A stretch of 64,000 nucleotides of DNA from contig LUGG01000014.1 in assembly GCA_001683735.1 (NCBI GenBank), positions 1,178,001 through 1,242,000 on the forward strand. Direction: 5' to 3'. The DNA comes from Grifola frondosa (taxonomy: Eukaryota; Basidiomycota; Agaricomycetes; Polyporales; Grifolaceae). The notes below the pieces were generated by a model. It saw nothing but the letters and a program-made list of their open reading frames with translations. It was not told the DNA's origin and made no database searches. The number at the start of each line of letters is the position of its first letter. Position 1 is the first letter of the stretch. Positions 17,735-41,737 of this stretch are shown here, in pieces. The position numbers and the translations under genes are program-made.

Positions 17735-17738
17735 GCGC
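17735..17738. repeat. Target-site duplication (left) of the Ty3/gypsy element, GCGC
   Basis: The 4 bp GCGC immediately before the left LTR repeat directly after the right LTR at 41734-41737. Five-base comparison fails (GGCGC versus GCGCC), so the duplication is 4 bp. Confidence 0.75.
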
Positions 17739-18613
17739 TGTGGAAGATGCGTGCGAATTCAGGGAGGCTGGGATCTGGTCGGTCTGACCGGAGTACTGTA
17801 GAGTACCAGTAGAGTAGACTTGAGAGAGAGAAACCCCCCAGCGCTAGCTGCCGAGAGGTATAGGTGGATCCTGAGAGTGCCTTGAGTAGAATATATGCCG
17901 TTGAGTTCCTAAGGCGCGCTTCGCACTTCGAAGGCCCTCAAGGTGTTCTCGCAGACGGAGATTCAGAATCAAAGCGGGTGGTGGATTCACTGAAGGAAGA
18001 GAGAAAAAAAGGGTGCTCGATACATATCGGCCTACTGCTCGCGCACTCTCGCAGCAGTCTCCGCAAGGCTCACTAGCGTTCGATCAAGGTACGTGTATCT
18101 AGGAAACTTCACCGAAAAGGGTATGGACAGCTTCGGGATCGTTCGGCGTCGCATGACAGTGGGTCGGCGGGTGCGCGATACAACGCAGAGCCCTATTTAC
18201 GCTCGCTCGGCTCCGCCTGCACCGGGCGGGGGTACGCCATACGCGTCCGCCAACGACTGCCATGGTCTGCGTCCCTCAACCGTTAGCTGTCCGAGAACTG
18301 GTAGAGAACAGGGAGAAGTGGTTCATGAACAGTGAAACATACGGAATGGTAAATCAAGATATCCGTGCCTAGCCCGTCTCCTGCACCGCCAACCGTCGCG
18401 AGCGTGATCCGCCGCGGTGTTCAGTAGCTCATCCCATCCGGCTCTTCACTTGGCCGGGACTTTGAATGTGATTCGGAGAGAATGAAGGGAGCCGTGGAGT
18501 ACCGATAGCGTAGGCGTAGACGTCGAGAGGATGGAAATAAGAGTAAGAAATAGTTCTGACTTAGATAAGGGTTATCAGTAAATTCTACGAGTGCCGTTTC
18601 TGGCACTACCACA
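17739..18613 (-). repeat. LTR (3' LTR of the minus-strand Ty3/gypsy element)
   Basis: Direct repeat of 40860-41733 with TGTGG and CCACA ends. It differs from its partner by one G in the run near 18230. It lies downstream of pol in the element's orientation, so it is the 3' LTR. Confidence 0.93.
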
Positions 18614-18711
18614 ACTGGGGGGCAGTTGAATGCTGTCCTCAGCATCGGAAAAACGAGAACACGAAAGAAAAGGGAATAAAAGGGTTGGTATAAGAAAACA
18701 TGGTCTGGACA

Positions 18712-21700
18712 TTACCACCAAGCCTGCACGCGTTGTGCGTCGCGCGCAAGGTCCGCGAGATTTGTAGACTCGATTGAATGGTTTCCGAGCACAGTATGCT
18801 CGTCGTCTAAGTCCCCGATCGTGAGGCAACGCGAGCCGTCCACGATAGATCGAAACTCGTAGGAAAGGGAATAGGACGAAGTGATCGAAGCAACCGTCTC
18901 GTCCGCGCGTGCTGGCTGAAGTCGGTCGCGGAGGGCCGGAAGCTCTGTCATCGTCTGGTTTTCGAATCTGTGGAAAAACCGCTTGACGCGGTCAGCTGCG
19001 AACGCGCCCCGCATCTCCGTCCCATCTAATTCCATCAACTGGTAGAACCTGTCCACCACCTTCCGAACTACGTACGGCCCTGCCCAGCGCAGCGCGCCCT
19101 TGTTGCCGTGCTGGTTGTCCAGCATGTCTGATGGACGAGCACGAGCGTCCCAACCGCGAGCATCTCCGTCTGGATCCTCCCCGCATTCCGCTTCTCATAA
19201 TCCTCAACCGCCTTTGCGCGTGCTTTATTCAGCTTCTCCGTGGCTCGTCCAATGTCCTTCTCGCGGCGTGTAATTTGTTGTAAGCGCAGGGCAATGAGAT
19301 CGTCTGTGTCCTTGACTGCGAACCAGTCGAGAGTGCTCCATGTCCGATCAGATAGGTCGAAGCCGAAGACTGGGTTCTGGGAGTAGAGAAGGTAGTAGGG
19401 TGTGTAGCCCGTCATGCGAGAGGTCGTCGTGCGCATGGCGAGCAGGGCACCGGGCAGATAAAGAGGCCATTCTTGTGGCTCATTCCCGCACGCCTTGAGT
19501 ATCGAGTTTACGAGGGTTTGATGTGATCGCTCGGCGACGCCGTTGGCCTCTGGGTGATAAGGTGCAACGAGGATGCATACGATGCCGTACTTGTCGAATA
19601 GATGCTTGACCGCACCCTTGAACTCCGGGCCATTGTCGCAAACGAAAACTGGTATGCACGAGAAACGACAGATGATATCGGTGTAAATGAATTTTGACCA
19701 GGCCTCCGACGTGTTGCGTCTCGACGCGCGAGCCTCTGGCCATCCGATGACTGGTTCGATTGCCTTGAGAATGTATCGCATCTTCTTGCGGCCGCGCGGC
19801 ATGTAGATAGTGTCTAGATGGAATTTACGGAGTATGGAGATGGACCAGGATGGGCTGTACGTCATGACGGGGCGAGCCTTTGAGCGAAACTGGCAGGCGT
19901 TGCACGAACGCACGAAGGTCGAGACTTCGTCGTACATGTTCGGCCAGTAGTAGCGTTCCGCAAGTCTTGTATAGGTCGCGTCGCGCCCGCGGTGTCCGCA
20001 CTGGTTGTGAGCTTCTGCTAAAATGATCTTTCGTCTGGTCTTGTCAGTAATAACCAGCCGCGGCATTTTGCCTTTCTGCGCTAGCCAAAGACGCTCTCCT
20101 GAGAGCATGAATCGTGAACAGAAAGAAAGGAATTTCTTGCGCTGCTCGAGGCTCGCACAACGCGGTGGAATCGAGCCATCCTTGAGATAGCCCAATACCT
20201 CCGCCCACTGTCCATCTGACTCCTCGTCCTTCTTTCCAAACTTGTGCCCAGCACCTGAATAAAACACCCCGTCGTTCTGGGGATACAGTGAACGAGACGC
20301 AAAGGGACTTCTCCCGGATTCTTCACGGGGGTCTGATGAAATAATTGAAGGAGAAAGCACGTACGCATACTGATACTCAGTGATCGGGAGATCAACTTCC
20401 TCGCCAGCTATAAGGTAGGTCTGGCATAGTTCCTGAGGGGTGTGCCGTCGCATGAAGTCATTTGGCACGAAGAACGCAGCGTCCGTGTCTGTGAGGGATA
20501 GGACAAAAGGAGAGGAAGAGAGTAGAGTCCCGCCATCCAAGTCTGTGGTGGTGGACTCGTCGTGTAAGGTCGACAGCGCCTCTTCGCCGAATTCAGTAAC
20601 TCCTAACGTAGCCAAACAAGGAGTTGTTGAGATTCGTTCTGAGTCGAACAAGGCTCCGTCCTCGATTCTGCGTCGTTCTCGGATGCGGTGAGCATAAAGC
20701 TCAATTTCTTCACGCAACTCTGTAGCTGCTAGGACCCGTTCCAGATACTCCTCGCCATCAGACTCGTCTGAGTCATCCGACGCTGGAGGTCGACGCGAGA
20801 GGCCGTCAGATGCCTGGTGAGCCGTGGCGGGTACATGATTGACGTAGAAGTCGAAAAGCCGTAAGTATGAGACCCAACGGGTCATAGGTGCATTCGGGAG
20901 GTCTGGAGAGCTGATCATCTGTTTCAGGGATTTAGCATCAACATCGAGACGGAAATATGTCCCCCAAATTCGATGTCGCAGCTCCTTGAACGCGCGGAAG
21001 ACACCGTACAGCTCCAGCTTGGGTTGTGAATACCTGGACTCTACCTCGTTGAAGGTACAAGACCCAAACAGCGCGGGATGCTTCTCGACGACATCCACCT
21101 GATACAAGACCCATCCGGCACCGTGGAGTGAAGAATCAACCGCAACAATGACAAGCCCGTGATCGGTGAGTCGCTCGTCATGCGGCGTGATGGTGCGCGC
21201 AAGCTCATAGTCAATTTTCCGTAGAACGGGCGCAGATGTCACCCGATGCTTGACGTACTCCATGGCCTCGTGTTCCTCCTCGCCCCAGACAAAAGGTGCG
21301 TCCTTCCGTGTAAGTCTCGTAAGAGGTCGTACAATGATAGAGAAATTCTTGATCCAGCGACGGGCTATTCCGGCAACCCCAAGGAAACTACGAACTTCAG
21401 AAACGTTAGTACATTCCACCCATTTCAACACCTTGTTGACGACTCCGTGATCCAGATGCCAGCCTTCAAGCGAAACAACGGTGCCAACAATGTGCATTTG
21501 CGGCACCGCCGCCACCAGTTTGTGTCCGCTAATGGTGATTCCGGCCAATTCAAACCTTCCAAAGATCCGGCTTGCGGTCGTCAAGAACTCGTACACAAAA
21601 CGCCGAACTCCGCTGCCCGGTATAATGAGCTCGTCATTGTAAGTGGTATTCGGTCCTTTGATCCCGACATCATCTAAAAATGCACGTGCGTGAGTAGGAT

Positions 21701-22998
21701 TTTCGTCGCGCAAGATATGGGTCCATGTCGCGCTGGAACTGGGTACGGCGTTTGCATATCCTTGCGGCAAGCAAGTTAGCCGATGGGCTCCTATGAGGCT
21801 GTCGAAGGTTGTCAGGTCCCGTGAACTCTCTGCAAGGATCCTCCCGTCGTAGCCCGCTAATAGGTCTACCATCATATACACGGCATGCCCTACAAAGCTC
21901 TCCGCGAAATCGTTGACATTCGGAATAAGCGCAGAGTCACGAATTGTGACGCGGTTTAGTGGCTCGAGTTGTGTACCAGGCGCAGCTTTCCAGACTTTTT
22001 CTCGACAGCGAAGACCTGTGATCGATAGGATGCAACTGATGGCTCGAATTTGCCATTGCGACGGTGTTCAAAAAGTAAGTCATAGACCTCCTTCTCGCGT
22101 GCACGAGGAATTTTGATCGGAGGTAGCTGCCACGGATATGCTCTAGGACTGGTATCTCGTAGTCGGGAAGTATTCGCGCGAGAAGAATCCACGCTCCGAG
22201 TCCGTGAACGCTAAAACTCGGTGGTGGCATTGCAAGACATGGGCCAGGAGATCGATCTCTGGAGGGTGAAGAAAACCCTCCGGCACTGTTTCGAGTATGC
22301 CATCTAGTCGTTCGCGTGTCAACCGCTCGGTTGGAATGAAGTCGGCGAGTGGTGGTGGATTAAAAGGGAGTGGATCAAGCTGTGGGTCAGGTATAATCTT
22401 GAAGGCCTGCGCTGATGGATTCGGCATATACGTAGGGACGGAGCGAACTTTTCGAGCCACGGGCTTGTATTTCTTGACGACGGCAACAGAATGTGACATT
22501 TCTGTTAGTGCTCTGTGTACCCATGGAGACTCTAATGGTGTTAGTACATGGGGAATGGAAAAGGAAACTTGTCGTAGAAGAGAATCAAATTCTAGTGGAG
22601 GGTAGAAGTGAAGAAATGATATTAGTTTCGAATTCATCAGACGGAATTTCACCAAGAAGGGTATATAGAGAGCGGCCCATCATCGGAACGGGCACTGCAT
22701 TGGGCGCAGCCGTGCCCCGTCCTAAAAACCCTTGCGCGCACTCGCAATATCTGGCGGTGCGAGCTGATAGGCATTTCGGGCATGATTAGGTGCAACGAGC
22801 TTGAGGGAAATGGCAGGCCCAACGGGATCATCACCGTTAGGAAAGACTGAAATATTCATGGCCCCTTCCCGAGTGAACTTGATGTTTGCCGCATACCATT
22901 GGAGCCATGGTTGACCTAGAATAACATCTTGCTTCCCGATGGAAGAGTTAGTACGCGCAACAAACAGGTGATGGTCAAATCGATGCCCTCCGATTTCT
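18712..22998 (-). CDS. pol: Ty3/gypsy pol, 3' portion: protease end, RT, RNase H, integrase
   Basis: This is the pol sequence left of the nested insert. It begins in the protease with IEIGGHRFDHHLFVARTNSS and DVILGQPWLQWYAANIKF. Reverse transcriptase follows (VYMMVDLLAGYDGRILAESS, RLTCLPQGYANAVPS, and FLDDVGIKGP, an FLDD form of the YxDD box), then RNase H (LVIVAVDSSLHGAGWVLYQV). Integrase has the His/Cys zinc region (HNQCGHRG..CNACQ), a DDE core (FHLDTIYMP, FVCDNGPEFKG, NGVAERSH) and a GPY/F-type motif (RWAGPYVVRKV); the protein ends at 18712. The frame breaks near 22740, 22200, 21940 and 19125 look like single-base errors, because the pieces are colinear. Dead or active status cannot be judged in this sequence, but the protease is clearly split by the nested transposon. 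Confidence 0.9.
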
Positions 22999-23005
22999 AT
23001 GGGTA
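22999..23005. repeat. Target-site duplication (left) of the nested KDZ transposon
   Basis: ATGGGTA occurs here and again at 38590-38596, on the two sides of the insert. Removing the insert plus one copy rejoins the retrotransposon protease frame (ARDIP | IEIGG). An 8-bp duplication with one mismatch is also possible. Confidence 0.85.
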
Positions 23006-23030
23006 GAGGGACTTCAGTTGGCCGGATACA
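23006..23030 (+). repeat. Left terminal inverted repeat of the KDZ element
   Basis: Pairs with the reverse complement of 38565-38589. The inner 16 bases match at 14 positions (CAGTTGGCCGGATACA versus CAGTTAGCCAGATACA). The outer 9 match apart from one substitution and two single-base gaps. Confidence 0.75.
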
Positions 23031-23109
23031 GAAAGAAGATGGAGTAGAACAAAAATAGATACATATTCCGAGGTGTATATAGATCGTAATACCATATGTA
23101 TCATTGCCT

Positions 23110-23537
23110 GACACCGCCATATGTATCCGACACCGCCAGATGTATCCGACGACGACGCTCGCATCCTCGCCCGTAGCTACACCGGACCCATCATACCCCA
23201 AGTGCCCCGACACCGCCATATGTATCCGACGCCGCCAGATGTATCCGACGCCGTCAGATGTATCCGACGACGACGCTCGCATCCTCACCCGTAGCTACGC
23301 TGGACCCATCATACCCCAAGTGCCCCGACACCGCCATATGTATCCGACGCCGCCAGATGTATCCGACGCCGTCAGATGTATCCGACGACGACGCTCGCAT
23401 CCTCGCCCGTAGCTACGCCGGACCCATCATACCCCAAGTGCCCCGACACCGCCATATGTATCCGACGCCGCCAGATGTATCCGACGCCACCATATGTATC
23501 CGACGACGACGCTCGCATCCTCACCCGTAGCTACGCC
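23110..23537 (+). repeat. Left subterminal tandem repeat of the KDZ element
   Basis: Four copies of a unit of about 118 bp begin at 23110 (99 bp, missing one sub-repeat), 23209, 23327 and 23445 (last copy truncated). Each unit contains two or three copies of a ~19-bp sub-repeat built on ATGTATCCGAC, followed by a unique part with GACGACGCTCGCATCCTC and CCCATCATACCCCAAGTGCC. In all, 11 TGTATCCGAC motifs occur. Open frames through the repeat merely reflect its composition. The position just inside the terminal repeat suggests transposase binding sites. Confidence 0.85.
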
Positions 23538-23694
23538 ATGACTGAGAATGACTCACCTATATTCTCACACTTGCACGCGGTTTCAACATCAGACAAAATA
23601 TGAACATCACATTCTCTATTGTATTTTAAGTAGACTTCTGCATTGTCAACGGTTAGTGTGCAGCACAGGCATTGAATATAAACAACACACCTTC

Positions 23695-26435
23695 CTACAA
23701 CATGGACTCCCTGTCCAACTTGTGGAAGTCCTCCATCCCGGTGCACGGATCCACCCCAGGAAAACGTAAGATGAGTGTTCGCCGCAGCTCGCAGTGGACC
23801 CAGAAAGCGTCCGTAAGTTTATTCGCCTCCCATATCCGCATCACCGGGTTCCAACGCTGGAAATGCACAACATTAGATCGGTAAAGCACTTTAAAACGAT
23901 TGGAAGTCGCGCGATGCTGATTTTCCCCTCACGAGGGACAGTGATATAGAACGGCCGTGGTCGCTTGCCCGACTAACGTGAATGTGAGTTCGCGGAGAGA
24001 ATTAGCAAGCGGACATACCTGGTTCCACACGTAAATTTCGAGCGCGAACCAGTCCTGCTCCGTCGACACCGCCATTCCGGCTCAGAAGATGAGGACCCCA
24101 TGCCGCCCCTTTCCGGCTCAAACTCCTCGTCCGACTCATCCCATGTCAACTTGTCGAGGGGATCCTCGTCGGAAGTGTATAGGTCCGAAGCATGCCCACC
24201 CGACATCTCTTCTGTAAAGAGGGAGGCGAAGGGGTCCTTGTCAGTTCGAAGACCAGCCACCAACTCCGGGCTGGAGTTGACCTGCGATGAACGGGGTAAT
24301 GCATCGTCGTCGTCGGGCCCGATCGCCTCCTCCGCTGCGAGCAGCGGGGGGTGGCGATTCTCCTTGCTGCTGTCGTTCCCGCTTGAAGGGCTAGGCTCCT
24401 TCGATGCCTGTTGTTTCAAGAATTCAGATGCAAGGGAGGTGTACACCTTGCGGGCGGCCGTCATCCACACTTTTTGAGTGGGAAAGGTGTCCGAGATTGC
24501 TGCATCGACTGCCGCGCCAATATCCAACGTCGGCTCAGCATCCGAATCGGAAGAGATAGAGATGACGCTACAAGCGGGAGAGGGAGAGCGGGCATAGCTT
24601 GGGTCAGTGGTATGAACGACGGACGCCTTTGGCGTGACTGGCGTCCGTGTAATGGGGATTGGGAGGCGCGGAGAAGGTCGATGTGCGTACGATGCGAGCT
24701 CTCTTACTGGGAGAAGACGGTCCATCCGAGGGCGTGGAAGGGACAAAAAACGTGCTCTTAGAGCGAGACGCGGAGCCAGGAGGAGCGCTGCCAGCCGATG
24801 CCCCAGTCGCCGTCTTCTCGCTGGACTTCTGAGTGAGAGGGGCTGAGTGACCGGTTTAGTGCCAGTCGTTATGCGTACGATGCGAGCTGCCTTGGTAGGA
24901 GAAGACGGTCCATCCGAGGGCGTGGAAGGGCCAAACACGTCGTTGGACTTCTGGGTGAGAGGCTGGGTGACCGGCCTAGTGCCAGTCGTGATGCGTACGA
25001 TGCGAGCTGCCTTGGTAGGAGGAGATGGTCCATCCGAGGGCGTGGAAGGGACGAAAAAGGTGCTCGGGAGAGACGACGATCCAGAAGAAGATCACCAGCA
25101 GATGCGCAGTACCCGAGGTCGCGACCTTCTCGTTAAAGGTCTGGCTGAGGAGGGGGAACGTCACTGGCCTAGGAATATTCGAGTCTATGGCACGCGGACG
25201 ATGGCATTGATGGCAGGTGTCTTGCGAGACGACAGCGCCTTGCCTTTGCCTTTACCCTTCAAGGAGTCGGTAGGGCTCGTAGCTGGCGTCGAGGAGTAGA
25301 AGCCGTGGGCTGGATCAATGTATGATTAGTTATATAATGCGTAACACAAGAATCGAGGCTCACCTGCGAGCTGGACCATCCAAGCCCGGATGGAGTCACA
25401 CCGCTCGACGAACCTGTCGTCTATGTGGTAGCAGTCAGCAGGTGTTCATTTGCGGGTTGCATATCACTTACCTGGGGGCTAGCACCCTCTTCAACCAGCC
25501 TTTTTTTCTCAGGGATGCCCTCAGTGAGGTCCATCGAAGCGCGACGCTTCCCCAAACATCCCTATTATTCACTAGGTTAGTGTAGAATTACCGCGTATTG
25601 ATCTCTCACTTACCTCGTTATCCAATTCACTTTGCAGTTTCGTCGCCAAAGCACGGTCTGCTCGTTCTTGTGCCGCTCGCGCCGTCACTACCGCCCTCTC
25701 GTGCCGCACCTTAGCCACCTCCTCCGCGCACCCGCCTTCTCTTCAGCAACCCGGGCGCGTTCCGCCGTCGCTCCCAGACGATTCGCATCAGCCTCCAGGC
25801 GAATACGTTCTTCATCGGCAATGAGTGCCTGAATAGCGGCAATCTTCGATGGAGAGGGAGCTGCCCCGGTCCAGGAGAACCAATCGCAGTACTTGTTCTT
25901 CTCGAAATTTTTGTACGTGCACTGATGGACAGCAAATGAGCCCCGCAGTGCGTCTAAGTAAGTAGAAACATACCTTAAAGAACCATTCGCCCCCGCTCTG
26001 CGATGCTGCTGGCGAACGCCAACTTACAGATGATCTTGCCGCCGTTGCCGCAAGTAGGGCAAACTTTCGGGCTGTCTTTAGGGCGATATTCTTTCGAACC
26101 CTCCTCGCAGAGAGTCCTGAGAGCGTTAGAGTATTTAGAAGGCATGGGAAATGTGAGAATAGTGAGAGGTGGATGTCCACAAGAAGACAAATACACGAAG
26201 TCAGACAGATTATAACATACGCAGCCTGGATCTCGCCATGTCAAATTTCTCCAGAAGGCGGAAGAGCGCGTCGGCCGATGCGTTGGAGGAAGCAAATACG
26301 CGATAACGCTCCAGCTCGACCACACTTTCAGGGCACGGAACGACGAAACTTCCCTGCCGTGTTTCTAAGTGCCCGTGAAGATCGATCGCCTCAAGATTGG
26401 TTTCAAAACATACCGGAAATATCAAGATCACTCAT
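23695..26435 (-). CDS. KDZ cargo: GRF-type zinc-finger protein with repeated Ser/Pro motif
   Basis: Multi-exon minus-strand gene, start MSDLDIS at 26435. The exon ELERYRVFASSNASADALFRLLEKFD is followed by KVCPTCGNGG and, after an intron, SGGEWFFKCTYKNFEKNKYCDWFSW. The CPxCG plus GxWFFxC..CxWFxW pattern matches GRF zinc fingers, single-strand-DNA-binding modules of topoisomerase III, NEIL3 and APE2 type proteins. A coiled coil follows (IAAIQALIADEERIRLEANR.., AQERADRALATKLQSELDNE). The middle has three copies of a motif around STPSDGPSSPTKAARIVR, then an acidic Ser-rich stretch. The C-terminus is FYITVPREGKISIARLP.. and MRIWEANKLTDAFWVHCELRR. Frame breaks near 25730, 24780 and 23890 look like single-base errors. 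Function within the transposon is unknown; DNA binding is an inference. Confidence 0.65.
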
Positions 26436-26588
26436 TTATCCACCAACGCCCGGGACAGCAGATCTTATCCCACGGACACCGGCTGCCTGTCGAGGTGTAT
26501 CACTCTTGTCACAGTCGGGAACCAAGTAACTAAGACAAAAATACGATAACGTAGCTACGGAATTTAGTGGAAAGTAGCTGCGTGAAGT

Positions 26589-28549
26589 TCACCCGCGGCG
26601 ACGCTTCGTCGACTTCGGTTCAAGCGACTCGAGGCTCTGCGCCGCCTTCCGCTTTTGCAGAGCGACAGTCTGCACCCTGCACCGTAAGTGAGTTCCTTCT
26701 AGTCTGTTGATTGACAGAATATTTCACTTACGGATCTTCGCCAAGAAGGCGACCTGAAGGTTTGCGTTCCCGTGGAGCTCGAGTAATCAGTGAAGTGTCC
26801 ACAGGCTGGACCGTTCGTACTGGTTTTGCAACGCGCGCGGTGCCAGAAGATTTGGCGGCTGAAGCGGGGTCTGTAATATTATGCTGTAGATGAGAATGTA
26901 TGAAGAATGCGGTCAACTACGTACCGTTATCAAGAGACTTTGATTTCTTTGATTTGAATTTCTTTGACTTGGACTTCCTCGACTTCTTGCGCGTCTGCTG
27001 GTTTCCGTCAGTCAAGGTTTCTACATTGCGTTCGTCAGTACGATTGCCTCATCAACATTATTGCAAGCTTACCTTGGATCGCTGTGAGTCGAAGTTCATG
27101 TGTTAGCTAATCCTGAATGATCGACCACGAAGAATACGCACCCTTGTGCACGATCTCCGCCACGACTGCCTGTGACAATGAAGGTTGAGGGGATGCCGGT
27201 TGAGAAACCTCCTGCGGCATCTGTCGCACACAAGTAGGCGATGGGACGGATGGTTGAGGAGATGCTGGTCGCGAAACCTCCTGTGAGTTCTCACGCGTGC
27301 GAGCAGGCGATGGGACGGATAGTTGGGGTGATTCTGGTTGGTAGAGCTCCGGCGAGCTGTCTCGTGGGGGAGAAGGCGACGGCTGGGACGCAGCCAATGC
27401 GCCAGAGAGCTCGTCACCTTGCTCGGCAAGGTGGAGCACGACGCTCGTGTGTGCGACGGCGGCGAAGGCGGCGGTGCTGTAGTATAGGATCGATTGAGGA
27501 AAATGGCCGATCGAACACGACTGATACTCACGTTTGAATAAGTCAGATAAAAACTCTGTGAATTTGCCGCGAATACGGTCGGAAGGCCAACCTGCAAGAG
27601 CACACAGCCGCGTTTCGAAGTCACAGCCCGCTGCGTCCTTGCCAATGCTTGTTCTACGTGTGATGTCAGCTGAATCAACCAGTAACGAGTTTAAACGGAC
27701 TCACGCATATGCTTGTAGATTCCCATTGGCATCAACGCCGCCCGCGATGTAGAACCCTACCCAACCGGTTTGATCATACCATCCTCGTGCACAAGCTTCC
27801 AACCAGTCTGGCATCGAGGAAGCTTTCCTGTGCACGCCGTAAGAATTATCCCGCACAGAAATCGTATTGACTTACCGCGCGCGAATGCCATCAGGGCCAA
27901 GAGCTGCGAGTTCAGCTTCAAGTGCCTTCCCTTGAGTCTCCGCTTCCTGCGCGAAGGCAGCTTTCTCCGCCGGGCTCAGCTGGTCGAATCGGGCTTTGGC
28001 TTCGGAGGCCCATTTACCAATGTTGGCTCTAGCGCGTCCGTCGGTTCCCGTGCTGACTTCAGCTTGAGGGCGATCCGGATGTTGTTTCTTGTAGATGTCC
28101 AGCGCCTGGGCTTGCGGGCTGGCGTACCGGCCATTGGCACAGGCGGCACCACAGTAGCCTTCGTGCGCTTGCGCTTCTCGCTGGCGTTCTTCACCCAGTT
28201 GTAGATGCGCTAAGTAAGACGTTAGTATTAATCATTCAAGCCAGGCACCTCGTACCTTGGCAATACCCTCCAGACGAGCCTCTGCTTCTTCAACGGACTC
28301 CTCCTCAAGACAAACCATTCGTGACCGATTCTTGCGCTTCGCACCTGCCAATCGTACTGTGAATTCCTCGGCGCTCTCAGCCTGAAAGGGAGTGTTGCCA
28401 AAATGTTCGCGGTATCGCTGAGTGATGCAAGTCGCAGCAGCTCGCTGACTACCAGTCTCTCCCCCGTTCAGTAAGTCCATTACCTCCTGCGAATTGCGAG
28501 CCTCTAGCAAGAAAGCCAGCTCTTCGGGACGCCATTTCGTCTTCCCCAT
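26589..28549 (-). CDS. KDZ cargo: basic nuclear protein with HMG-box-like segment
   Basis: Multi-exon gene from MGKTKWRPEELAFLLEARNS at 28549 to a nuclear-localisation-type end, EPKSTKRRRG, at 26589. The N-terminal 60 residues (RPEELAFLLEARNSQEVMDL, AAATCITQRYREHFGNTP) could be a Myb/SANT-like helix bundle. Next come RIYNWVKNASEKRKRTKA and a segment resembling an HMG box: ALDIYKKQHPDRP.., IGKWASEAKARFDQLSPAEK. A conserved-looking exon reads KPVGWVGFYIAGGVDANGNL. The C-terminal half has Ser/Pro repeats (VPSPARTRENSQEVSRPASP and variants, about 27420-27180) and a Lys/Ser-rich tract (about 27000-26940). I do not recognise the family as a named protein. The HMG assignment is by eye and needs a profile search. 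It lies between the GRF gene and another cargo gene, all on the minus strand. Confidence 0.55.
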
Positions 28550-28968
28550 CTTTTCTACGGCGTAATCGTCAGTACCTGAGTTCAACACAGGGACGATTTC
28601 TCACCGAACGTTCCCGCCGCAGAAAGCTACCCTGCCAGAGCGCAAGAGATCCTGCAAGACATTGTTCAGCGCCGGAAATCCAACTTACCCGGTGGCCAAT
28701 CTCAAATGATCCCGATGGTCTCCGAGGAGACCCATGAAGGAAACAACGATCAATTCCGATAACTGCAAAATAATACATCCAACGGCAAGGAGAAAAAACT
28801 CGATAAACCGCCCGAGAAGTCCAGATCCAGCACAATCACGACGAAGGATCAAACGAAAGCACCTGAGGAGAAAACGTCGATCCACAGGCAGCGCGAAAGC
28901 AGAGAGCATACACGAAGAGCAAGGCATAGAATGAACATAGCAACAAAAACGATGACGTCCGCACTACA
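28550..28968. other. Intergenic spacer between two KDZ cargo genes
   Basis: These 419 bp separate the start of the HMG-like gene from the end of the next minus-strand gene. They must contain the promoter of the former. Nothing else can be supported. Confidence 0.4.
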
Positions 28969-32798: not shown

Positions 32799-33573
32799 AT
32801 GCCGCGTGTTCGTAGCTCTCCCGACAGCCCTACGTCGTACATGGCGCGCCGTCGCGCTCAGTTTCTCTCAAGATTACGCCAGTCCCGCTCGCGTTCCTCT
32901 GCACCTGCATCGTCTTCCCCCACGTCCGTTTGGATCAAGACGTACGTGGTGTGACAGTGCGGGTAGAATTCTCGTCGACCAACCCCTCATTCACGTCGAA
33001 TGCCGCATCCTTGCGCAAGGAGTGCGGCCTCTCCATGCACTGGTCGATGTCCTTCAACCGCGCAGGTGTCACCCAGTTGCCGGAGTGTTACATTGAGATG
33101 GAGGGGTTGCCATCGCAGGTCGACAAACGCGTAAGTCATGCACATATCATCTTTTAACAGAAAATTCACGTCTTCGACAAGTTCAATCTCCCACTGTCCG
33201 CTGAACAACTGTTCCCCTCAGCACAGTTCGAACAATGGATCGCGCGTCTCGGAAGCCCTGACGTAGTGCGCGTGGTGCCGGAGTATGGGCGCGCTATCGT
33301 GCACGACCTCGCTAGGATTTACATATTCTTTTGTGAGGACCGGGTTATGTAGAAGGTTGGGAGATGTTCATCCGGAAGATTGAAGATGCTGCGAAGGAAC
33401 CTGCTCGTCCGATCGAAGCGCGTCTTTTAGAAATCGATCGTTGGGCACGCCGTAACCTACCGGTACGATAATTGACTTTTTATACACCGCTTTCTTGACT
33501 GATGTCAGGATTGCAGTATTGGATCTTTCTGCATTCGTATACGGAGCCGGAAGCCCATGGTGAAGACAATTAA
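32799..33573 (+). CDS. KDZ-adjacent small unidentified protein
   Basis: Plus-strand gene just upstream of the transposase. It begins MPRVRSSPDSPTSYMARRR with an Arg/Ser-rich stretch. After a one-base frame break near 32940 it continues VTVRVEFSSTNPSFTSNAAS and LPECYIEMEGLPSQVDKR. An intron of about 44 bp (33129-33161) follows, then KIHVFDKFNLPLSAEQLFPS, AQFEQWIARLGSPDVVRVVP, WEMFIRKIEDAAKEPARPIE and a last exon QYWIFLHSYTEPEAHGEDN. The pieces are colinear and look like real protein, but I do not recognise the family and the joins are uncertain. The same strand and about 290 bp spacing to the transposase suggest it is part of the transposon's gene set. Confidence 0.5.
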
Positions 33574-33608
33574 GGTAACCTGTCGTCTGTATTTCAGGAG
33601 AATATGTA

Positions 33609-33622
33609 GGGGGGGGGGGGGG
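33609..33622 (+). repeat. G14 homopolymer
   Basis: Fourteen consecutive G, the longest homopolymer in the window, lie between the small upstream gene and the transposase gene. Its length is doubtful given the homopolymer errors elsewhere. Confidence 0.8.
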
Positions 33623-33858
33623 AAGCAGCGCTGCCTGAGCTTTGTAATATGTATTCCGTGTTGTACGGCGTGTATCTGCGAAAGTAACCAATACTGGTCC
33701 CCGCTGGACGTAGTACGGCCCCTCGCATTGAAAACGAGCGATTGTCGGTGAACGCGGGTGTTGATATGGAATGCGGCTGCCTGGCAAATGTGCGGGTCAC
33801 GTGCTTTTTCATGAAGGATTTTGACTTCGTTTCTACCTTCAGTTCGACGACATGACCT

Positions 33859-36800
33859 ATGGCGACCAAACCTAAGGCGAGCAAAGTCCGCGCGAAGCAA
33901 AGCGGGCTGTTTGGGCTATCAAATATATTCCAATCTGCGGCTTCATCTTCCTCGGCGTCAGTGTCCCCTGATCCTTGGGCGGCTCGAAAGGTTGGAGTTG
34001 GGGATCAACCTGGGGCTTTACCCGCACCATATGCGAAGGAGTCACAGCCGTCGAAGGTGCAAAGTGGCAATGCTACGGTCAACAATACAATTGTGCGTAG
34101 CACGGTGGCGACTCTGATGATTTACTAATTCTACTCATAGCCACCTTCCGTGCGCATGGCCCAATTTCTCAAAGATTGGGCGACGCAAGCCTTGGCAGGG
34201 ATTTTGCAACGAGAACAAGGTCCAACGTCTGGAACCGGCGGAGAGACATGCTCGTGCGCGAAGTGCAAGTCTGCATGCGGTACAGAGGACCCAATGTACC
34301 GTTGCTTCGACTGTTATCACTCATCCTCCTCGTGTCGCAAATGCATCATCGCCGACCATTTCAACACCCCTTTCCACCGAGTAGAAGAGTGGGATGCCAC
34401 GAGCGGTTTTTGGCGTCGACGTGCTCTTGGAGAGCTCGGTCTCGTTATCCGATTGGGTCATGAAGGTTCCATATGCCCTAATTCGTTATCAGAACCTCGC
34501 CGCATGACGGTAGTTCATGCCCATGGCGTGCATTCCATGTCTGTGCATTTTTGCGCTTGTCGTCTGTCCGACGGTCGTCCGCCACTAGCAGACCCCCTTC
34601 AGCTGATCAAATTTGGGTTGTTTCCTGCATCCTGGGAACGTCCGATGACGGCTTTCGCGATCAGTATGCTCCGCGACTTCCATTTGCTATCTCTGCAGTC
34701 GCAGATGAATGCGCACGACTACTACACTTTTCTGCGGCGGACTACGGACAACGTGGCTCCCGACAGTGTTCCGGTGAGTGGATCTGGTTGTGAGGCGGAT
34801 TGCGCGCTGACGTGACGGGCGTACAGGACCGCTATCGAGAGCTTTTGACGGCTGCTCGTGAATTTACATTTTTACGATCGGTCAAACGAGCAGGCACACA
34901 GCCGCAAATTCATTTGCCAAGGGGCAGTCTCGCGGTGTTGTGTCCAGCATGCCCACAGCCGGGCATCAACATGGATCCACACTGGCGAACGAGACCGGAA
35001 GGGCAACGGTGAGCGTGATACCTAATTCATTATAATGGATTGTGCTTAATACGTTGATATCTAGTTTTCTGGACGCTCTTTTTCATACCGTGGATGGCAA
35101 CTTCCATCAAAATCAACGCGAGAAACCCATGGACCCGAACGATCTACCGCTGACCCTTGGGGCAGCGTACTAGCGAATGAGCGAGAGTTCGACTTGTATC
35201 AAAAGCGGCTTGGGCCGATTCAAAAAGAGGTGAGCGATTTTCTGTTTCGTCAGACATGAACGCTAACAGTTTATCAGCCTACCACATGCCACAAGTTCGG
35301 GGCGTTGGGCTACGGGCGGTACGGCGGGCGAATATCAGGAACAGTTGGGTTGTCGTGCGCTCGCCACATGTTCGTGCTTCCGTGTGGTGGCGTGGACCTG
35401 CAGAAAGGCGAAAGGTATGCACCACGGTATGCTCGCACACTTATGATCTAACCGATGGCGCAGATTCGCGAATGTTGATTTTGCAATGCTTTCCGCGTTA
35501 CAGCCATGGATGGGACTTCGATTACACGTTTCCGGCTACGATATCAATTGTCAATACCGAATTCATTTGGCCGCACGCCTACATTGGATTGCACGACGTG
35601 CGATAGACCTCCCCTCGATACAGTCTTACCGCTTGCCTCAGACGTTGGCAGCGGTTGGCAAATTCCATTTGCCGGCTCACATCGCGCAATGTCGGTTCAA
35701 GTTCTCTTACTATTGGTTGCCAGGGGTGGGGATGACTGATGGTGAAGCTCCTGAGAGGATTTGGGCTACCCTCAACGCCTTAGCTTCGCGGACTCGAGAA
35801 ATGACGTCGGGTCACCGCCACGACGTGATCAACGATCATCACTCCGACATGAACATCCGCCGCGTTCACAGCTTAAGTGTGGTCTTCATTGCTGAATTTG
35901 ACGTATACTACTGATGTACATTGCACAGGTCGATCGTTATCAAGCAAACACGAACGTGCGGTCAAGCAGCTGAAGGTGGCAACTGATCATCTGGTCAGTG
36001 TGGAGGAAAACGTGAGCACGGAGAAATTAGCAAACTGGAAGCAGCAGGAGGATGAGTGGCTGCGGAAAGTGGTCGATATGGGGAAACACAAGGACCTAGA
36101 GAATGTGTATGAGCCTCGCCGGGAGGCAGGTGAGTAAATGTTCAGATGACCTTTTGCCGTTCTGACGAAGCGCCGCAGCCCTGACACAAAAACAAATGTT
36201 GGCGCATCTCAACACACGAACGGATCCCAATCATTCGGCGACACCGGGTCTAGTGGAGGCTATTGAGCAAGGCATCTCTCTCCAGACTCAAAAGTGCGTA
36301 GGACCTCTGCTTTCGAGCAGCACTGCTGACATACACTGGCTAGATTATCACTTCTCACCGCAATTCAAGATGATTATGGCACGGATAGTGGGCACTCTGA
36401 GCTGGACGATAAGCGCAAGCAGTTCGCAGCGAAGTGGAAGGAATGGAGAGATATATCGGATCGATATCTGTCCCCGTTGGTCGACGAGGCGGCGAAGGCT
36501 GTAGAAGAGGAATCACCCGGTCCTTTCTCCAGATCATTTCCTTTGGCCGCGCCTGCAGTAGACGACAAGAACGAAGACTCCGTCACTGATTCCACCAGCA
36601 AGCCAAAGGGAAGCGCAAGCGTGACCCGGAGCCGGAGGATGACGCGCAGCGTACAAAAAGTACGGCGTGGTTCGAGGTCGATGCGATCCAGATAGATGTG
36701 CCATCGTCGTACGATCCGGCCGTGCGCACCACAACATTATGGCCGGTGCAATCGAGGTAGAACAGAAATTGCGACAATCTCAAGCGAACGATGCCCTGGA

Positions 36801-37600
36801 CGATGTGCGCACTCACATCATCACTAACGAGGCTTTCAAGATCGCGAAACATAATGTTTCGGGCCAAAGGGCGAATACTCGGGCAACAAACCAAATCCGG
36901 CAGAAGCAACTAGCCATCAACAGAGCGGCCGACGAATATCGCCGCGCGCGACGGATTATGGTAATGCTGGGTATGAATGCTAACGATCCTACATACAGGG
37001 AACTGAAGCGTGAAGATGTCCGCAAGTTCACAATGTATTCGGCGCAACAACAAATCGGGCAAAGCAAGGAAGCACCTTCGTGGATCTGGGAGAACTTTTC
37101 TTTTGTGGAAGGTCAAGCTGCGGGGGGATATGAGGAGTTTTTCGAGGACGGTATGTACACGAATATTCCACAGAGGATTTAGGACTGACGTGCATCGGGA
37201 AAGCACTGCGCGTTCACTGGTTCAGATCAAATGCCCTCAAGGCGCGTTGGCACGAGGAAGTGTTGCTGGTCGAGGAGGAAATGCGGCGGACATTGCGATT
37301 TTTCTTATACTTCGAGCGCGACTGGCTGAGGAAAGCGGAGGAGTTGGATAAGGGCGGAGACCATGGGGCAGCCGCATATGCGCGAAAGTGAGTCAGATAT
37401 TCGCGTAGGTGGTGCCGTACTCATTATAATCTAGGCAAGCATGTCGTTATTCGCGGTTGTTGTCGTTGGGGCGGATTTCGTTCGCAAATAGGATAGAGAC
37501 GGTAAGTATTGAACAAATGCAGTTAGCACTACACTAACGTGTTTGGTAGAATGCGGTTACAGTGCTGGACCTTAGGGTAAGCATTACGGATGTGGATTAG
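33859..37600 (+). CDS. KDZ transposase with CxC2-type cysteine cluster
   Basis: Multi-exon transposase of about 1000 residues. The first exon MATKPKASKVRAKQ.. is basic and Ser-rich. The cysteine cluster (about 34250-34570: CSCAKCKSACG, YRCFDCYHSSSSCRKCIIAD, HFNTPFHRVEEWDATSGFW) is the CxC2 module that precedes KDZ transposases. The core follows with CPACPQPGINMDPHW, VDGNFHQNQRE (first catalytic Asp), LSCARHMFVLPCGGVDLQKG, SGYDINCQYRIHL (second Asp) and TDGEAPERIWATLNAL (Glu), an RNase-H-fold DDE set with all three acids present. The long helical C-terminus (AIEVEQKLRQSQANDALDDV, GQRANTRATNQIRQKQ) ends VLDLRVSITDVD. Single-base breaks occur near 35170, 36605 and 36735. The enzyme presumably cuts and reinserts the surrounding element via its terminal repeats. 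Confidence 0.92.
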
Positions 37601-38196
37601 TATGTAGGATGGTGGCATTGAGTACTGTAATGGATTTCGGTGTTTTCGTATTATTAGAAGCGCGACGGAAGCGCATGTATGCACGAGCTTGCGAGATGCA
37701 CAAAATGTACCCGCGCAATTAAGCAAACAGTTCAATTTGCGTTGAAGAGAGACTCGCGCACGATTATGATGCACGGTGTTTTTTTGAAGAGGTCTGCACG
37801 CTGCATGCATAACTTTGAAGAAATCTATGTGCATGATGCTGGTGTGCATTGTATTTTGTGCTGAGAGGACACACAGAAAGTGCATGCGCAATTAGGTAAA
37901 TGATTGAATTTGCATACACTTCAATGAAGAGATGCGCGCACACAATTTCGAAGAGATCCGTGCGCACGGTTTTGGCGCGCTTCGTATTTGAGCTTGGGAC
38001 ATTACCCGCGTGCGCAAGCCGGCACAGAGCTCTGTTTGGACAGTTGTCCACTATAACGGAGGGGAAAGGAATGCTGGATTATTACTATACATGTAAGAGT
38101 GTACTACTTTATGTATACATGTGAGCATGTAGTTATAAGATGAAATGATCTTGGTATGTATGAATATCCGACCTGCATGAATGAGGAAGGGAGGTG
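37601..38196. repeat. Right subterminal region of the KDZ element with degenerate repeats
   Basis: Gene-free sequence downstream of the transposase. Two degenerate copies of a unit of about 173 bp start at the GCGCAATTA words at 37713 and 37886, sharing CAATTTGC, TGAAGAGA and GCGCAC words. Many GTGC/GCAC words are scattered through it. There is no coding character. Confidence 0.55.
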
Positions 38197-38280
38197 GGAT
38201 GGATATGGACAGCTGGATGTATATGGGAGGCAGGATGTATATGGGCGGCGGGATGTATATGGGCGGCGGGATGGATATAT
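38197..38280 (+). repeat. 18-bp tandem repeat near the right KDZ end
   Basis: Four units of 18 bp plus a partial fifth, starting at 38197, 38215, 38233, 38251 and 38269. The consensus is GGATGTATATGGGCGGCG; the third and fourth units are identical. Confidence 0.85.
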
Positions 38281-38342
38281 CGAGCACCACGCCAAAATGA
38301 GTGGATATTAGAATAGCTCCATATAGATTTGTAAAGCCTTCA

Positions 38343-38396
38343 TGGCGCAGTTGTATCAGGTATGTGCTTTGCTTTCCAAAGTCGCGGGTTCGATCC
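38343..38396 (+). promoter_or_regulatory. tRNA-like pol III promoter (A and B boxes), candidate SINE head
   Basis: An A-box-like TGGCGCAGTTGTATCAGG (38343-38360) and a perfect B box GGTTCGATCC (38387-38396) are spaced as in a tRNA. The B box sits in a CGGG-TTCGATC-CGGG hairpin resembling a T arm, and GCTTT/AAAGT could pair around a 7-base loop. The flanks do not form an acceptor stem and the loop lacks the usual U33, so this is not a functional tRNA gene. A tRNA-derived SINE fragment, or a tRNA-like piece of the transposon, fits better. Confidence 0.45.
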
Positions 38397-38564
38397 GGGC
38401 CAAATGCATCTATTTTGCCATAATTGAAGCGTGGAGTCCGATGCATCTCGCAATCTCGGTTGTATCCGAATTGGCGAGATGTATCTGACCCAATGCAAGG
38501 GCAAAAGCAGGAGGTGAGCCCACCTCCCGGGTGTATCCGGCACAGGTGAAGGTGATGTACCGGA

Positions 38565-38589
38565 TGTATCTGGCTAACTGAATCTCTAC
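38565..38589 (-). repeat. Right terminal inverted repeat of the KDZ element
   Basis: Inverted partner of 23006-23030. It ends at the second ATGGGTA copy (38590-38596). Nearby TGTATCCG/TGTATCTG motifs (about 38461, 38481, 38532 and 38565) echo the left subterminal repeat. Confidence 0.75.
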
Positions 38590-38596
38590 ATGGGTA
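38590..38596. repeat. Target-site duplication (right) of the nested KDZ transposon
   Basis: ATGGGTA, identical to 22999-23005. Confidence 0.85.
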
Positions 38597-39530
38597 TGTC
38601 ACGAGCACAACCCTGGAGGGTCACTGGCTCTCCGCTAATTCCTCGCAGAGACCAACGGGCCCCATCAATATCTAGCGGTATGCTCATTGAGTCAAATGCT
38701 TCCGCAGATATGATATTGAGCTCTGAGCCCGTGTCAATCATGCAGATGAGCGGAAATCCTGCAAAGTGAGCCTCGAAACGACCCGTGGTCATGGCAAAAA
38801 GACGAGAGGGTTTAAGAGAGACTGCAAAGGCATACCGTCCGATAACCTCCTCCACATCCTCATTGCTGCCAACCGATACATATGCAGCTCGGTAACCATC
38901 TTGGACTTTATCAGTCTCGGAGTTCTCCATGAACTCGCCGAGTTTGGCCACGTATTCTCGCCGTGTCTTCGTTATGTTGGTGAACCTCTTCTGCAGCTCG
39001 GCCGACGTTGCAATGAGACTTCGGAGTGACAGCGTGATCGGCGTGTCAAGAATTGCCTGCTGTACTGCATCGATATTGACGGATTCCTGTATATCAGAAG
39101 TAAATCGATAAGTGGGAGCCTTAGCCTTCGGTATTTCGTCACGCATTTCCACGTCATCCTTGACTGTCACAGACGGACGTGGCAGCTTGCGCGCCGAGGA
39201 CTTCTGCGTGATGCCCGGTGTCTGGATCTCCTCGATAACAGGCACGAAAGGCTGGGGGACAGATTCGTTCTGCTTCCGTGGCATAGAACTATCCGCCACC
39301 GGTGGGGACGGATGCTCTACTGTAATCGCAGGTGGCTGTCCTTTCCCCGAAATCTTGAGTTTGATACCCGTTGCCTTGCTTCCGTCTTCTTTCTTCGCCG
39401 TCGGGTCAAAACGCACATCCTTCTTTGGCGTTCGAATAGCTGGAGACATGCCATAATCCTGAGGGACTGCAATTGCGTAAACATCGCCTGAGAGGACGTC
39501 CTCGCCATTACACATCACCCCTACGGTCAT
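38597..39530 (-). CDS. pol: Ty3/gypsy pol, 5' portion ending in the split aspartic protease
   Basis: Second frame of the retrotransposon, beginning MTVGVMCNGEDVLSGDVYAI at 39530 with its ATG overlapping the gag stop (ATGA). About 200 residues of low-complexity linker (KKDVRFDPTAKKEDGSK..) lead to the retropepsin active site PLICMIDTGSELNIISAEAF. The reading is cut after GEPVTLQGCARDIP by the KDZ element: the codons run into the transposon end and stop at 38586. The protease continues at 22998 on the other side of the insert. A homodimeric retroviral-type protease is expected from the single DTG. Interruption here should abolish protease and downstream enzymes for this copy. Confidence 0.88.
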
Positions 39531-40744
39531 GCTCTGATGCGGGGGTGGATCGCGTTCTCGGCTCTTCCCTTTTGTAGCATGAATTTCTGTGCGAATATAG
39601 TTAGCAATGCCCCAGCTCCAGCGCGTACCATTGGCAGATCAGAGCCATCGAGCCGGACAAGCTTCCCGGTACTTGAGTACTTTAAGATACCCTCGGAGAC
39701 GAGTTTCTCCGCTTCTGGGCAGAATCTGTAGCCAATAGGGTGTGTATCAGTATTGTCGCACATCCAACAGTGCTTGCTCTTTGGAGCTCGCTGCGCTGCC
39801 TGCTGTTGTTCTACAAGAATCGTTAGTCTCTCCATCCGTCTCGTCAGTGACTCCAGAGTGTCTTCAGCGGGAGGCTGTGGTACCGCCGGTGCTGGCATCG
39901 GAAGAACCGCAGGCTTTCCTTTAGCCTTGGCCTTATGCTTCTGCGGCCTCTCGTCTTCCGAGTCACTGTCCAGGTCATCCGAGTCATCGGCCTTTGAGTC
40001 CTCATCAGATTCTTCATCCATGAGGTGTGCTTCGTCTTCATCCGTATTGTAGTCGATGTCGTCCGGCTCATAGAGCTTGCGAGTTTCCCTCAGAAGCTCG
40101 GCAATGTCGGGCATGGCGTTCGTCTTCGTCGACGAAAGCTTGCCATAGATTCGTTGACGGACCATACTTGGCAGGCCACGATAGAACCTAAGATTTATGT
40201 CATTGTCAGTAGTGACTTTCCGCGAGACTAGGTCTCCGGACAGTTTGAGGAATTGACGGGTGTACGCATCCAACTCGGAACGGGATTTGAATGTGGTGTT
40301 CTTACCCGTCTTTGTCGTGAACTCCAACAACTTCGGCCACGAAGCCTTCGGTCTCCGATCATTCGACTCGTAGAGCTCACGCAGCGCGGTCTTCGCGTCG
40401 TCCCAGTCTGCCGCATTGAACTGAGGAAGATGCTCGATCACCTCGCGGACAGCCTTAGAACAATAGCGCACGAGCTTCTTTGGAAGTTCGGTATCTTGAA
40501 TGCCCGCATGCGCTGCCAGAGACTCGAAATCTTCAAGGAATTCCTCGATGTCTACGCCCTTGAACTTCGGCGCATTGTGGTGGTTTGGACGAGGGAAAGG
40601 CGTGAATAGTCTTGCTGCCATGGGTGTAGCAGTGGTCGCCGCGGCGGGTGCTGTGGGAGCTGTAGGAGCCGCGCTCGACTGAGGTTGTACAGGCATGTTC
40701 GGAGCTGATGGAGTGGGGTTGGGACCTCCTCCCGCAGGGCTCAT
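39527..40744 (-). CDS. gag: Ty3/gypsy gag
   Basis: Intact frame of 405 codons, MSPAGGGPNPTPSAPNMPVQ to AIHPRIRA. The Pro/Ala-rich N-terminus is followed by a capsid-like region with NAPKFKGVDIEEFLEDFESL, LDAYTRQFLKLSGDLVSRK and DINLRFYRGLPSMVRQRIYG, the gag pattern of fungal Ty3/gypsy elements. An acidic stretch (DEESDEDSKADDSDDLDSDS) precedes a variant zinc knuckle, CWMCDNTDTHPIGYRFC (C-x2-C-x6-H-x5-C rather than the classical C-x2-C-x4-H-x4-C). It forms the nucleocapsid/capsid of the virus-like particle. The stop overlaps the next frame's ATG by one base pattern, ATGA. Confidence 0.9.
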   Translation of the reverse strand: MSPAGGGPNPTPSAPNMPVQPQSSAAPTAPTAPAAATTATPMAARLFTPFPRPNHHNAPKFKGVDIEEFLEDFESLAAHAGIQDTELPKKLVRYCSKAVREVIEHLPQFNAADWDDAKTALRELYESNDRRPKASWPKLLEFTTKTGKNTTFKSRSELDAYTRQFLKLSGDLVSRKVTTDNDINLRFYRGLPSMVRQRIYGKLSSTKTNAMPDIAELLRETRKLYEPDDIDYNTDEDEAHLMDEESDEDSKADDSDDLDSDSEDERPQKHKAKAKGKPAVLPMPAPAVPQPPAEDTLESLTRRMERLTILVEQQQAAQRAPKSKHCWMCDNTDTHPIGYRFCPEAEKLVSEGILKYSSTGKLVRLDGSDLPMVRAGAGALLTIFAQKFMLQKGRAENAIHPRIRA

Positions 40745-40840
40745 GCACTAAATTCGAGAATTGGTTAGTTTAAACGACGGGTAGGGAATCTCACCGTCGC
40801 AAGGGGCTGCAGAGGGCTGGACACGGAAAACCAGTGATTC

Positions 40841-40857
40841 CCCTGCGGTGGTCACCA
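40841..40857 (-). promoter_or_regulatory. Candidate primer-binding site
   Basis: On the element's sense strand, two bases inside the 5' LTR, TGGTGACCACCGCAGGG begins with the TGG expected to pair with the CCA end of a tRNA. The matching tRNA was not identified; it should end CCCTGCGGTGGTCACCA. Confidence 0.55.
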
Positions 40858-40859
40858 CT

Positions 40860-41733
40860 TGTGGAAGATGCGTGCGAATTCAGGGAGGCTGGGATCTGGT
40901 CGGTCTGACCGGAGTACTGTAGAGTACCAGTAGAGTAGACTTGAGAGAGAGAAACCCCCCAGCGCTAGCTGCCGAGAGGTATAGGTGGATCCTGAGAGTG
41001 CCTTGAGTAGAATATATGCCGTTGAGTTCCTAAGGCGCGCTTCGCACTTCGAAGGCCCTCAAGGTGTTCTCGCAGACGGAGATTCAGAATCAAAGCGGGT
41101 GGTGGATTCACTGAAGGAAGAGAGAAAAAAAGGGTGCTCGATACATATCGGCCTACTGCTCGCGCACTCTCGCAGCAGTCTCCGCAAGGCTCACTAGCGT
41201 TCGATCAAGGTACGTGTATCTAGGAAACTTCACCGAAAAGGGTATGGACAGCTTCGGGATCGTTCGGCGTCGCATGACAGTGGGTCGGCGGGTGCGCGAT
41301 ACAACGCAGAGCCCTATTTACGCTCGCTCGGCTCCGCCTGCACCGGGCGGGGTACGCCATACGCGTCCGCCAACGACTGCCATGGTCTGCGTCCCTCAAC
41401 CGTTAGCTGTCCGAGAACTGGTAGAGAACAGGGAGAAGTGGTTCATGAACAGTGAAACATACGGAATGGTAAATCAAGATATCCGTGCCTAGCCCGTCTC
41501 CTGCACCGCCAACCGTCGCGAGCGTGATCCGCCGCGGTGTTCAGTAGCTCATCCCATCCGGCTCTTCACTTGGCCGGGACTTTGAATGTGATTCGGAGAG
41601 AATGAAGGGAGCCGTGGAGTACCGATAGCGTAGGCGTAGACGTCGAGAGGATGGAAATAAGAGTAAGAAATAGTTCTGACTTAGATAAGGGTTATCAGTA
41701 AATTCTACGAGTGCCGTTTCTGGCACTACCACA
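40860..41733 (-). repeat. LTR (5' LTR of the minus-strand Ty3/gypsy element)
   Basis: 874-bp direct repeat of 17739-18613 with TGTGG..CCACA ends. It is upstream of gag in the element's orientation, so it should contain the element's promoter. Confidence 0.93.
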
Positions 41734-41737
41734 GCGC
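41734..41737. repeat. Target-site duplication (right) of the Ty3/gypsy element, GCGC
   Basis: Copy of 17735-17738. Confidence 0.75.

Follow-up and report, generated by a model that had tools for sequence, protein, structure and literature searches.

How a KDZ transposase gene came to lie between the two halves of a Ty3 retrotransposon, and whether the limits of the intervening unit can be fixed to the base, are the questions raised by a 64,000-nucleotide stretch of the genome of Grifola frondosa (maitake, a polypore). The stretch (contig C13:1178001-1242000) is referred to as the window, and it was compared with the genome (39.06 Mb in 64 contigs). We conclude, with a probability of about 0.95, that an element of a KDZ-type family was inserted by cut and paste into the Ty3 element, splitting it, and that it carries a CxC2-KDZ transposase along with genes on the opposite strand. 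A nested insertion had already been proposed in a sequence-only reading of this DNA.

The disrupted element is one minus-strand Ty3 retrotransposon, as had been proposed. Its long terminal repeats (LTRs) are identical at 874 of 875 aligned columns (a single 1-base gap, no substitutions) with TG...CA ends, GCGC stands on both sides, and the gag, protease and pol open reading frames (ORFs) all lie on the minus strand (Table 1). The features of the class are present, namely RNase H (residues 305-402) ahead of the integrase zinc finger (residues 674-728) in the same pol ORF, and paired TG..CA LTRs with a short target duplication. No reverse transcriptase Pfam domain was reported by hmmscan in pol, where a FLDD motif, as in reverse transcriptases, was found. 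The gag/protease ORF upstream of the break matches DUF4100 (PF13352, 9e-50) and, weakly, a protease (PF13975, 0.071). The element is considered young because its LTRs lack substitutions, in agreement with the age first suggested for it. At least two matches to the internal stretch 18614-22998 occur in the genome (the window copy and one on contig C44), and at least 11 to the LTR, four of them in these two copies. The 4-bp target duplications of both copies, GCGC and CCGG, are palindromic, but with two cases no preference can be claimed.

The protease region of the window copy is broken: translation reads ARDIP at the right break and resumes with IEIGG in the ORF across the insert. This split, also read earlier, is borne out by the ORF translations and by the second Ty3 copy (C44:13159-21552), which is uninterrupted. 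The same seven bases, ATGGGTA, stand at both breaks as stated previously, and C44 has a single ATGGGTA where the window has two. Window positions 17736-23005 match C44:13156-18422 and positions 38590-41736 match C44:18416-21555; the overlap of both matches in C44 amounts to exactly these seven bases, and the 25 bases on each side equal the window junctions. An LTR pair of its own (no mismatches, two gaps) and CCGG on both sides mark the C44 copy as a separate insertion of the same Ty3 family and not an allele. Divergence between the two copies is uneven, with 124 mismatches in 4397 columns on the pol side and 7 in 2271 on the gag side. The C44 copy is a direct, paralogous empty site for the KDZ insertion, found by the search for insert-free Ty3 copies that the sequence-only reading had recommended. 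The order of events would then be as follows: the Ty3-type retrotransposon came in first, on the minus strand and with a 4-bp GCGC duplication, and a KDZ transposon would later have entered its protease region by cut and paste, the 7-bp target duplication resulting from a 7-bp staggered cut. The KDZ insertion must be younger than the Ty3 element.

The ends of the KDZ element are fixed at single-base level, as had been claimed, by the C44 empty site and by 11 other end pairs in the genome. Searching the genome with a degenerate pattern of the two ends and tolerating two mismatches gave 27 sites, 25 of them exact; a control pattern gave none. The exact ends form 11 left/right pairs, each on one contig, plus a left end on C25 and right ends on C28 and C40. 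The C25 and C28 ends were counted as a twelfth pair because both carry the duplication CTGCGCT; the C40 end has no partner and was excluded from the pair count. All 12 pairs, window included, have the same terminal bases (GAG..TAC), so that the copies with shared ends that were to be looked for do exist, with their termini at the same positions. The 7-bp duplication is exact in 10 of the 12 pairs and agrees at 6 of 7 bases in the other two (C8 and the C19 copy at 400 kb). For duplication lengths of 3-6 and 8-12, the best agreement was 3 of 3 and 7 of 11 at the C3 copy, and for 8 bases the agreement is 0-4 bases in every one of the 12 pairs. Crossed pairings of the ends, serving as control, gave 7 of 7 in none of 132 cases and 6 of 7 or better in two. 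The inverted ends proposed as matching do so imperfectly (18 of 25 positions, or 16 of 18 over positions 8-25). Six of the 11 one-contig pairs (window, C6, C22, C5, C3 and C20) span 15.4-15.7 kb.

The same data bear on the idea that unrelated stretches were joined inside a repeat during assembly. Near-identical copies in this genome differ mostly by gaps, suggesting indel errors, and one family copy is apparently split between C25 and C28. A misjoin, however, does not produce a 7-bp duplication whose single copy stands in C44, nor does it account for 11 further end pairs with the same termini and with duplications; an assembly artefact is accordingly judged extremely improbable. The C25 left end (C25:267279-267303) and the C28 right end (C28:44377-44401) look like one KDZ insertion split by translocation or misassembly. 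Two further termini (C22:694654 and C25:445319) have the same outer bases with two changes and sit some 2.4 kb away from other KDZ loci; from these ends, the terminus seems to be conserved beyond the family.

That the insert holds a KDZ transposase, as the sequence-only reading had it, is evident from both domains found. The features of the superfamily, whose name was reportedly introduced by Iyer et al. in 2014, are present: the PF18758 domain and a CxC cluster (CxC2) ahead of the transposase. The PF18758 match covers profile positions 98-217 of 217 in one ORF, and the N-terminal part of the domain probably lies in short upstream exons, to which a GT..AG pattern in the alignment points. No other transposase family exceeded its cut-off among the ORFs scanned. 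The element has 14 copies of the octamer TGTATCCG, 12 of them in its first 500 bp and two in its last 130 bp, and the stretch in the middle is free of it; window-wide there are 15. The complement of the octamer sits in the left end. By likeness to other large DNA transposons, these octamers are candidate transposase-binding sites, and the transposase may bind the subterminal array. A tRNA-like stretch near 38340 (a B-box look-alike) was rejected, as no tRNA was predicted in the window by ARAGORN, and 22500-39000 had no Rfam match up to E 1.

Apart from the transposase on one strand, the element encodes, upstream on the other strand, a companion gene and a second gene (gene 2), plus a family-specific third ORF (gene 3). 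Comparison with the C20 copy gave 72 synonymous and 37 non-synonymous differences in the N-terminal part of the companion (ratio about 0.18), 15 and 9 in the first exon of gene 2 (0.21), 10 and 7 in the ORF at 27107-27700 (0.27), and 18 and 17 in gene 3 (0.37; 0.45 against the C19 copy). Scoring of 7995 candidates gave 46 homologues of the companion with E values up to 0.001, and those with organism names come from genera such as Ganoderma, Trametes, Cubamyces and Dichomitus, which belong to the Polyporales. Gene 3 matches copies of its own KDZ family and one weak other place. Several ORFs were rejected as genes: 31227-31910, 32001-32510 and 32052-32591 (ratios about 0.85-1.3 against C20 and C19), and 25966-26526 and 25812-26240 (1.2-1.5 against C20). 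The KDZ ORF differs from that of C20 by 1 synonymous and 2 non-synonymous changes, and the transposase exons are too similar for a selection test.

Table 1. Features of the Ty3 retrotransposon and of the KDZ element nested in it (positions in the window).
Feature	Position	Strand	Basis
Ty3 4-bp target duplication GCGC, left	17735-17738		flank comparison
Ty3 LTR (3' LTR in element sense), 875 bp	17739-18613	-	comparison of LTR pair
Ty3 pol ORF, 998 amino acids	19068-22064	-	Pfam PF17917, PF17919, PF17921
Downstream half of split Ty3 protease region (IEIGG...ILGQPWL)	22722-22998	-	translation and match to C44 copy
KDZ 7-bp target duplication ATGGGTA, left	22999-23005		junction comparison
KDZ transposon, 15,584 bp	23006-38589	+ (transposase strand)	domains, empty site, end pairs
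Left terminal inverted repeat GAGGGACTTCAGTTGGCCGGATACA	23006-23030	+	12 exact left ends in genome
Subterminal tandem array, 118-bp unit, with octamer TGTATCCG	23110-23537		
Gene 3, ORF of 371 amino acids	23973-25088	-	comparison with family copies
Gene 2, two exons (28232-28600, 27872-28231)	27872-28600	-	no Pfam family over cut-off
Companion gene	29120-31092	-	659-amino-acid open frame in C6 copy
ORF with CxC2 cysteine cluster of transposase	34141-34812	+	PF18803, 110.8 bits, 4.6e-32
ORF with C-terminal part of KDZ transposase domain	35447-35911	+	PF18758, 112.9 bits against cut-off 26.6, 2.3e-32
Right terminal inverted repeat GTAGAGATTCAGTTAGCCAGATACA (minus strand)	38565-38589	-	13 exact right ends in genome
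KDZ 7-bp target duplication ATGGGTA, right	38590-38596		junction comparison
Ty3 gag/protease ORF upstream of break, DTG motif	38597-39635 (whole ORF 38586-39635)	-	Pfam and translation
Ty3 gag-side ORF, 405 amino acids	39527-40744	-	no Pfam match over cut-off
Ty3 LTR (5' LTR in element sense), 874 bp	40860-41733	-	comparison of LTR pair
Ty3 4-bp target duplication GCGC, right	41734-41737		flank comparison

Certain observations weigh against the proposed reading of the insert as a cut-and-paste KDZ element. The inverted repeats are short as well as imperfect, the empty site is paralogous and not allelic, and the other five one-contig end pairs (C2, both C19, C8 and C12) are longer, at about 19-35 kb, perhaps through later insertions. 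The companion is split into two overlapping ORFs in the window copy, and two coding stretches appear to be without constraint against C20, namely the second exon of gene 2 (2 synonymous and 7 non-synonymous differences, ratio 1.29) and the CxC2 ORF (1 and 7), with few differences in either. Further, the transposase region of the window and C6 copies is one base short relative to C20, C12 and the C19 copy at 400 kb. Given the split companion ORF and this base loss, the window copy may not be intact.

The missing base, kept in those three copies, is consistent with movement of the window unit in trans by the transposase of another copy or family, its own transposase being dead, as suggested in the available portion of a report on Ectocarpus giant elements with broken transposases (PMC12477816). 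Such an origin is rather doubtful, though a serious candidate: an indel error in sequencing could account for the missing base, and movement in trans would be compatible with the cut-and-paste insertion proposed here. The transposase encoded in the element would probably be the agent of its movement. Five near-identical KDZ locus pairs elsewhere in the genome (about 3.4-3.7 kb each) show 0 or 1 mismatch and 2-4 gap openings, and a sixth, older pair shows 95 mismatches. As gaps make up nearly all differences between near-identical copies, frame breaks of one base in the window copy are not proof of decay and may be sequencing errors. Near-identical KDZ gene pairs in inverted orientation, 15-25 kb apart on one contig, are seen at C19:859450/879499, C2:1543180/1559907, C7:95144/119873 and C3:164765/179680, with the identity spanning nearly the whole 3.4-3.7 kb compared; such pairs might mark giant elements whose transposase lies within long inverted repeats, or they might be palindromes produced in assembly.

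Divergence among family copies is uneven along the element. The window and C6 copies have no mismatches in seven 500-base bins (34006-37505), 0.0-0.4% in bins 23506-25505 and 3.9% in the tandem array. Divergence of the window copy from C20 is 0-2% from 34 to 37.5 kb and 17-26% in bins 31506-33005; the tandem array stands at 12%, and the rest of the left part to 28.5 kb at about 2-6%. The pattern suggests recombination between KDZ subfamilies.

The placement of the family within the superfamily was weighed against published systems. According to the available portions of Kojima 2025 (PMC12730594), target duplications are 7 bp in Kyakuja and 8 bp in Zisupton and Dileera, the TET-bearing Kyakuja of Laccaria (Kyakuja-1_LB, -2_LB and relatives) have CA..TG termini and no terminal inverted repeats, and Kyakuja alone is reported among TET-bearing elements of Polyporales. 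The window element resembles fungal Kyakuja in its KDZ transposase, 7-bp duplication and Agaricomycetes host; unlike the TET-bearing Kyakuja described there, the family has GAG..TAC termini and imperfect inverted repeats, lacks a TET/JBP gene and carries two different genes that recur. Of 22 TET/JBP matches in the genome, 21 of which exceed the cut-off, none lies inside the element. Zisupton and Dileera, as presented in the same source, share the superfamily but differ in their 8-bp duplications. In a tree of 25 KDZ pieces from this genome (of 30; no outside references), a 100/100 split puts the window transposase and the two TET-bearing KDZ rows on one side. That placement, the 7-bp duplication and the record of Kyakuja in Polyporales speak for Kyakuja in the sense of Kojima 2025; the termini and the lack of a TET/JBP match speak against it, as do the absence of outside references and of resolved branching within that side of the tree. 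On balance the assignment to Kyakuja comes close to an even call, leaning slightly towards the negative. Since the 7-bp duplication fits Kyakuja and GAG..TAC is not the published CA..TG, the family is filed as KDZ only.

Among other known systems, as far as the available portions of the respective reports describe them, KDZ1-KDZ3 of Cryptococcus neoformans (PMC12810828) are likewise large, with a cysteine cluster and defined ends, and have been shown to insert; they have terminal inverted repeats of 139-241 bp, duplications of 8 bp (KDZ1) or 4-8 bp (KDZ2, KDZ3), and CxC1 where the window element has CxC2. In Pleurotus ostreatus, CxC2 precedes intact KDZ transposases as it does here, and the terms 'target site', 'TSD' and 'inverted repeat' are absent from the main text of that report (PMC7641404). 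Terminal inverted repeat motifs of KDZ or Plavaka elements have been characterised in Marasmius oreades (PMC8290104). The giant KDZ elements of Ectocarpus share a length of >10 kb, extra genes and nested insertions with the window element, but these and a 31.7-kb Chlamydomonas element belong to algal hosts (PMC12477816).

The two opposite-strand genes recur beside KDZ loci throughout the genome. After collapsing rows by hand (128 KDZ rows to 77 loci, 92 companion rows to 41 and 33 gene-2 rows to 27), 27 of the 41 companion loci were found within 15 kb of a KDZ locus, against about 6% under random placement, and 26 of these 27 lie on the opposite strand. Leaving out 13 loci of the window's own family, 15 of 28 remain within 15 kb. 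For gene 2, 26 of 27 loci are within 25 kb of a KDZ locus, all 26 on the opposite strand, and without 12 loci of the window's family 14 of 15 are near one; some 6 kb from the lone remaining locus (C2:76307) there is a CxC2 match. Companion and gene-2 loci are not independent, because many look like copies of each other. Among the 14 companion loci without KDZ within 15 kb, one is the C12 family copy, with KDZ at 22 kb, and six (C1:842290, C1:1039717, C1:2301169, C3:302123, C3:812003 and C5:1062850) look, by equal scores, like one companion-like repeat, 34-38% identical to the query.

Of the 77 KDZ loci, 18 have a TET/JBP match within 6 kb and 27 have a companion, while none has both (hypergeometric 0.0001, with the relatedness of loci ignored); no KDZ locus lies within that distance of five of the 22 TET/JBP places. 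These patterns lead us to propose, tentatively and at somewhat less than even odds, a fungal KDZ lineage in which a conserved cassette of companion and gene 2 replaces the TET/JBP demethylase as an alternative helper (in transposition via the octamer array, or in anti-silencing), the two kinds of helper being mutually exclusive. In the window element, the companion and gene 2 may assist transposition or evade silencing. Outside both elements, the ORF 46269-47588 flanking Ty3 is similar to proteins named transformation/transcription domain-associated protein in one source.

The sequence-only reading had valued the locus because the ends of these large elements are hard to define. The ends are indeed defined here, but that argument is weaker than first put forward, for KDZ elements with defined ends and target duplications have already been published, as the available portions of PMC12730594, PMC12810828 and PMC8290104 indicate. 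As an event the nested insertion is ordinary, if documented unusually well. What could surprise specialists are the linked companion genes, which were observed in one genome. The outcome is a KDZ family, usually 15.4-15.7 kb long, whose ends and duplication were established from 12 end pairs together with one empty site. With such a family, KDZ elements in polypores can be annotated with their boundaries in view, and a first question open to testing can be put about their unannotated companion genes.

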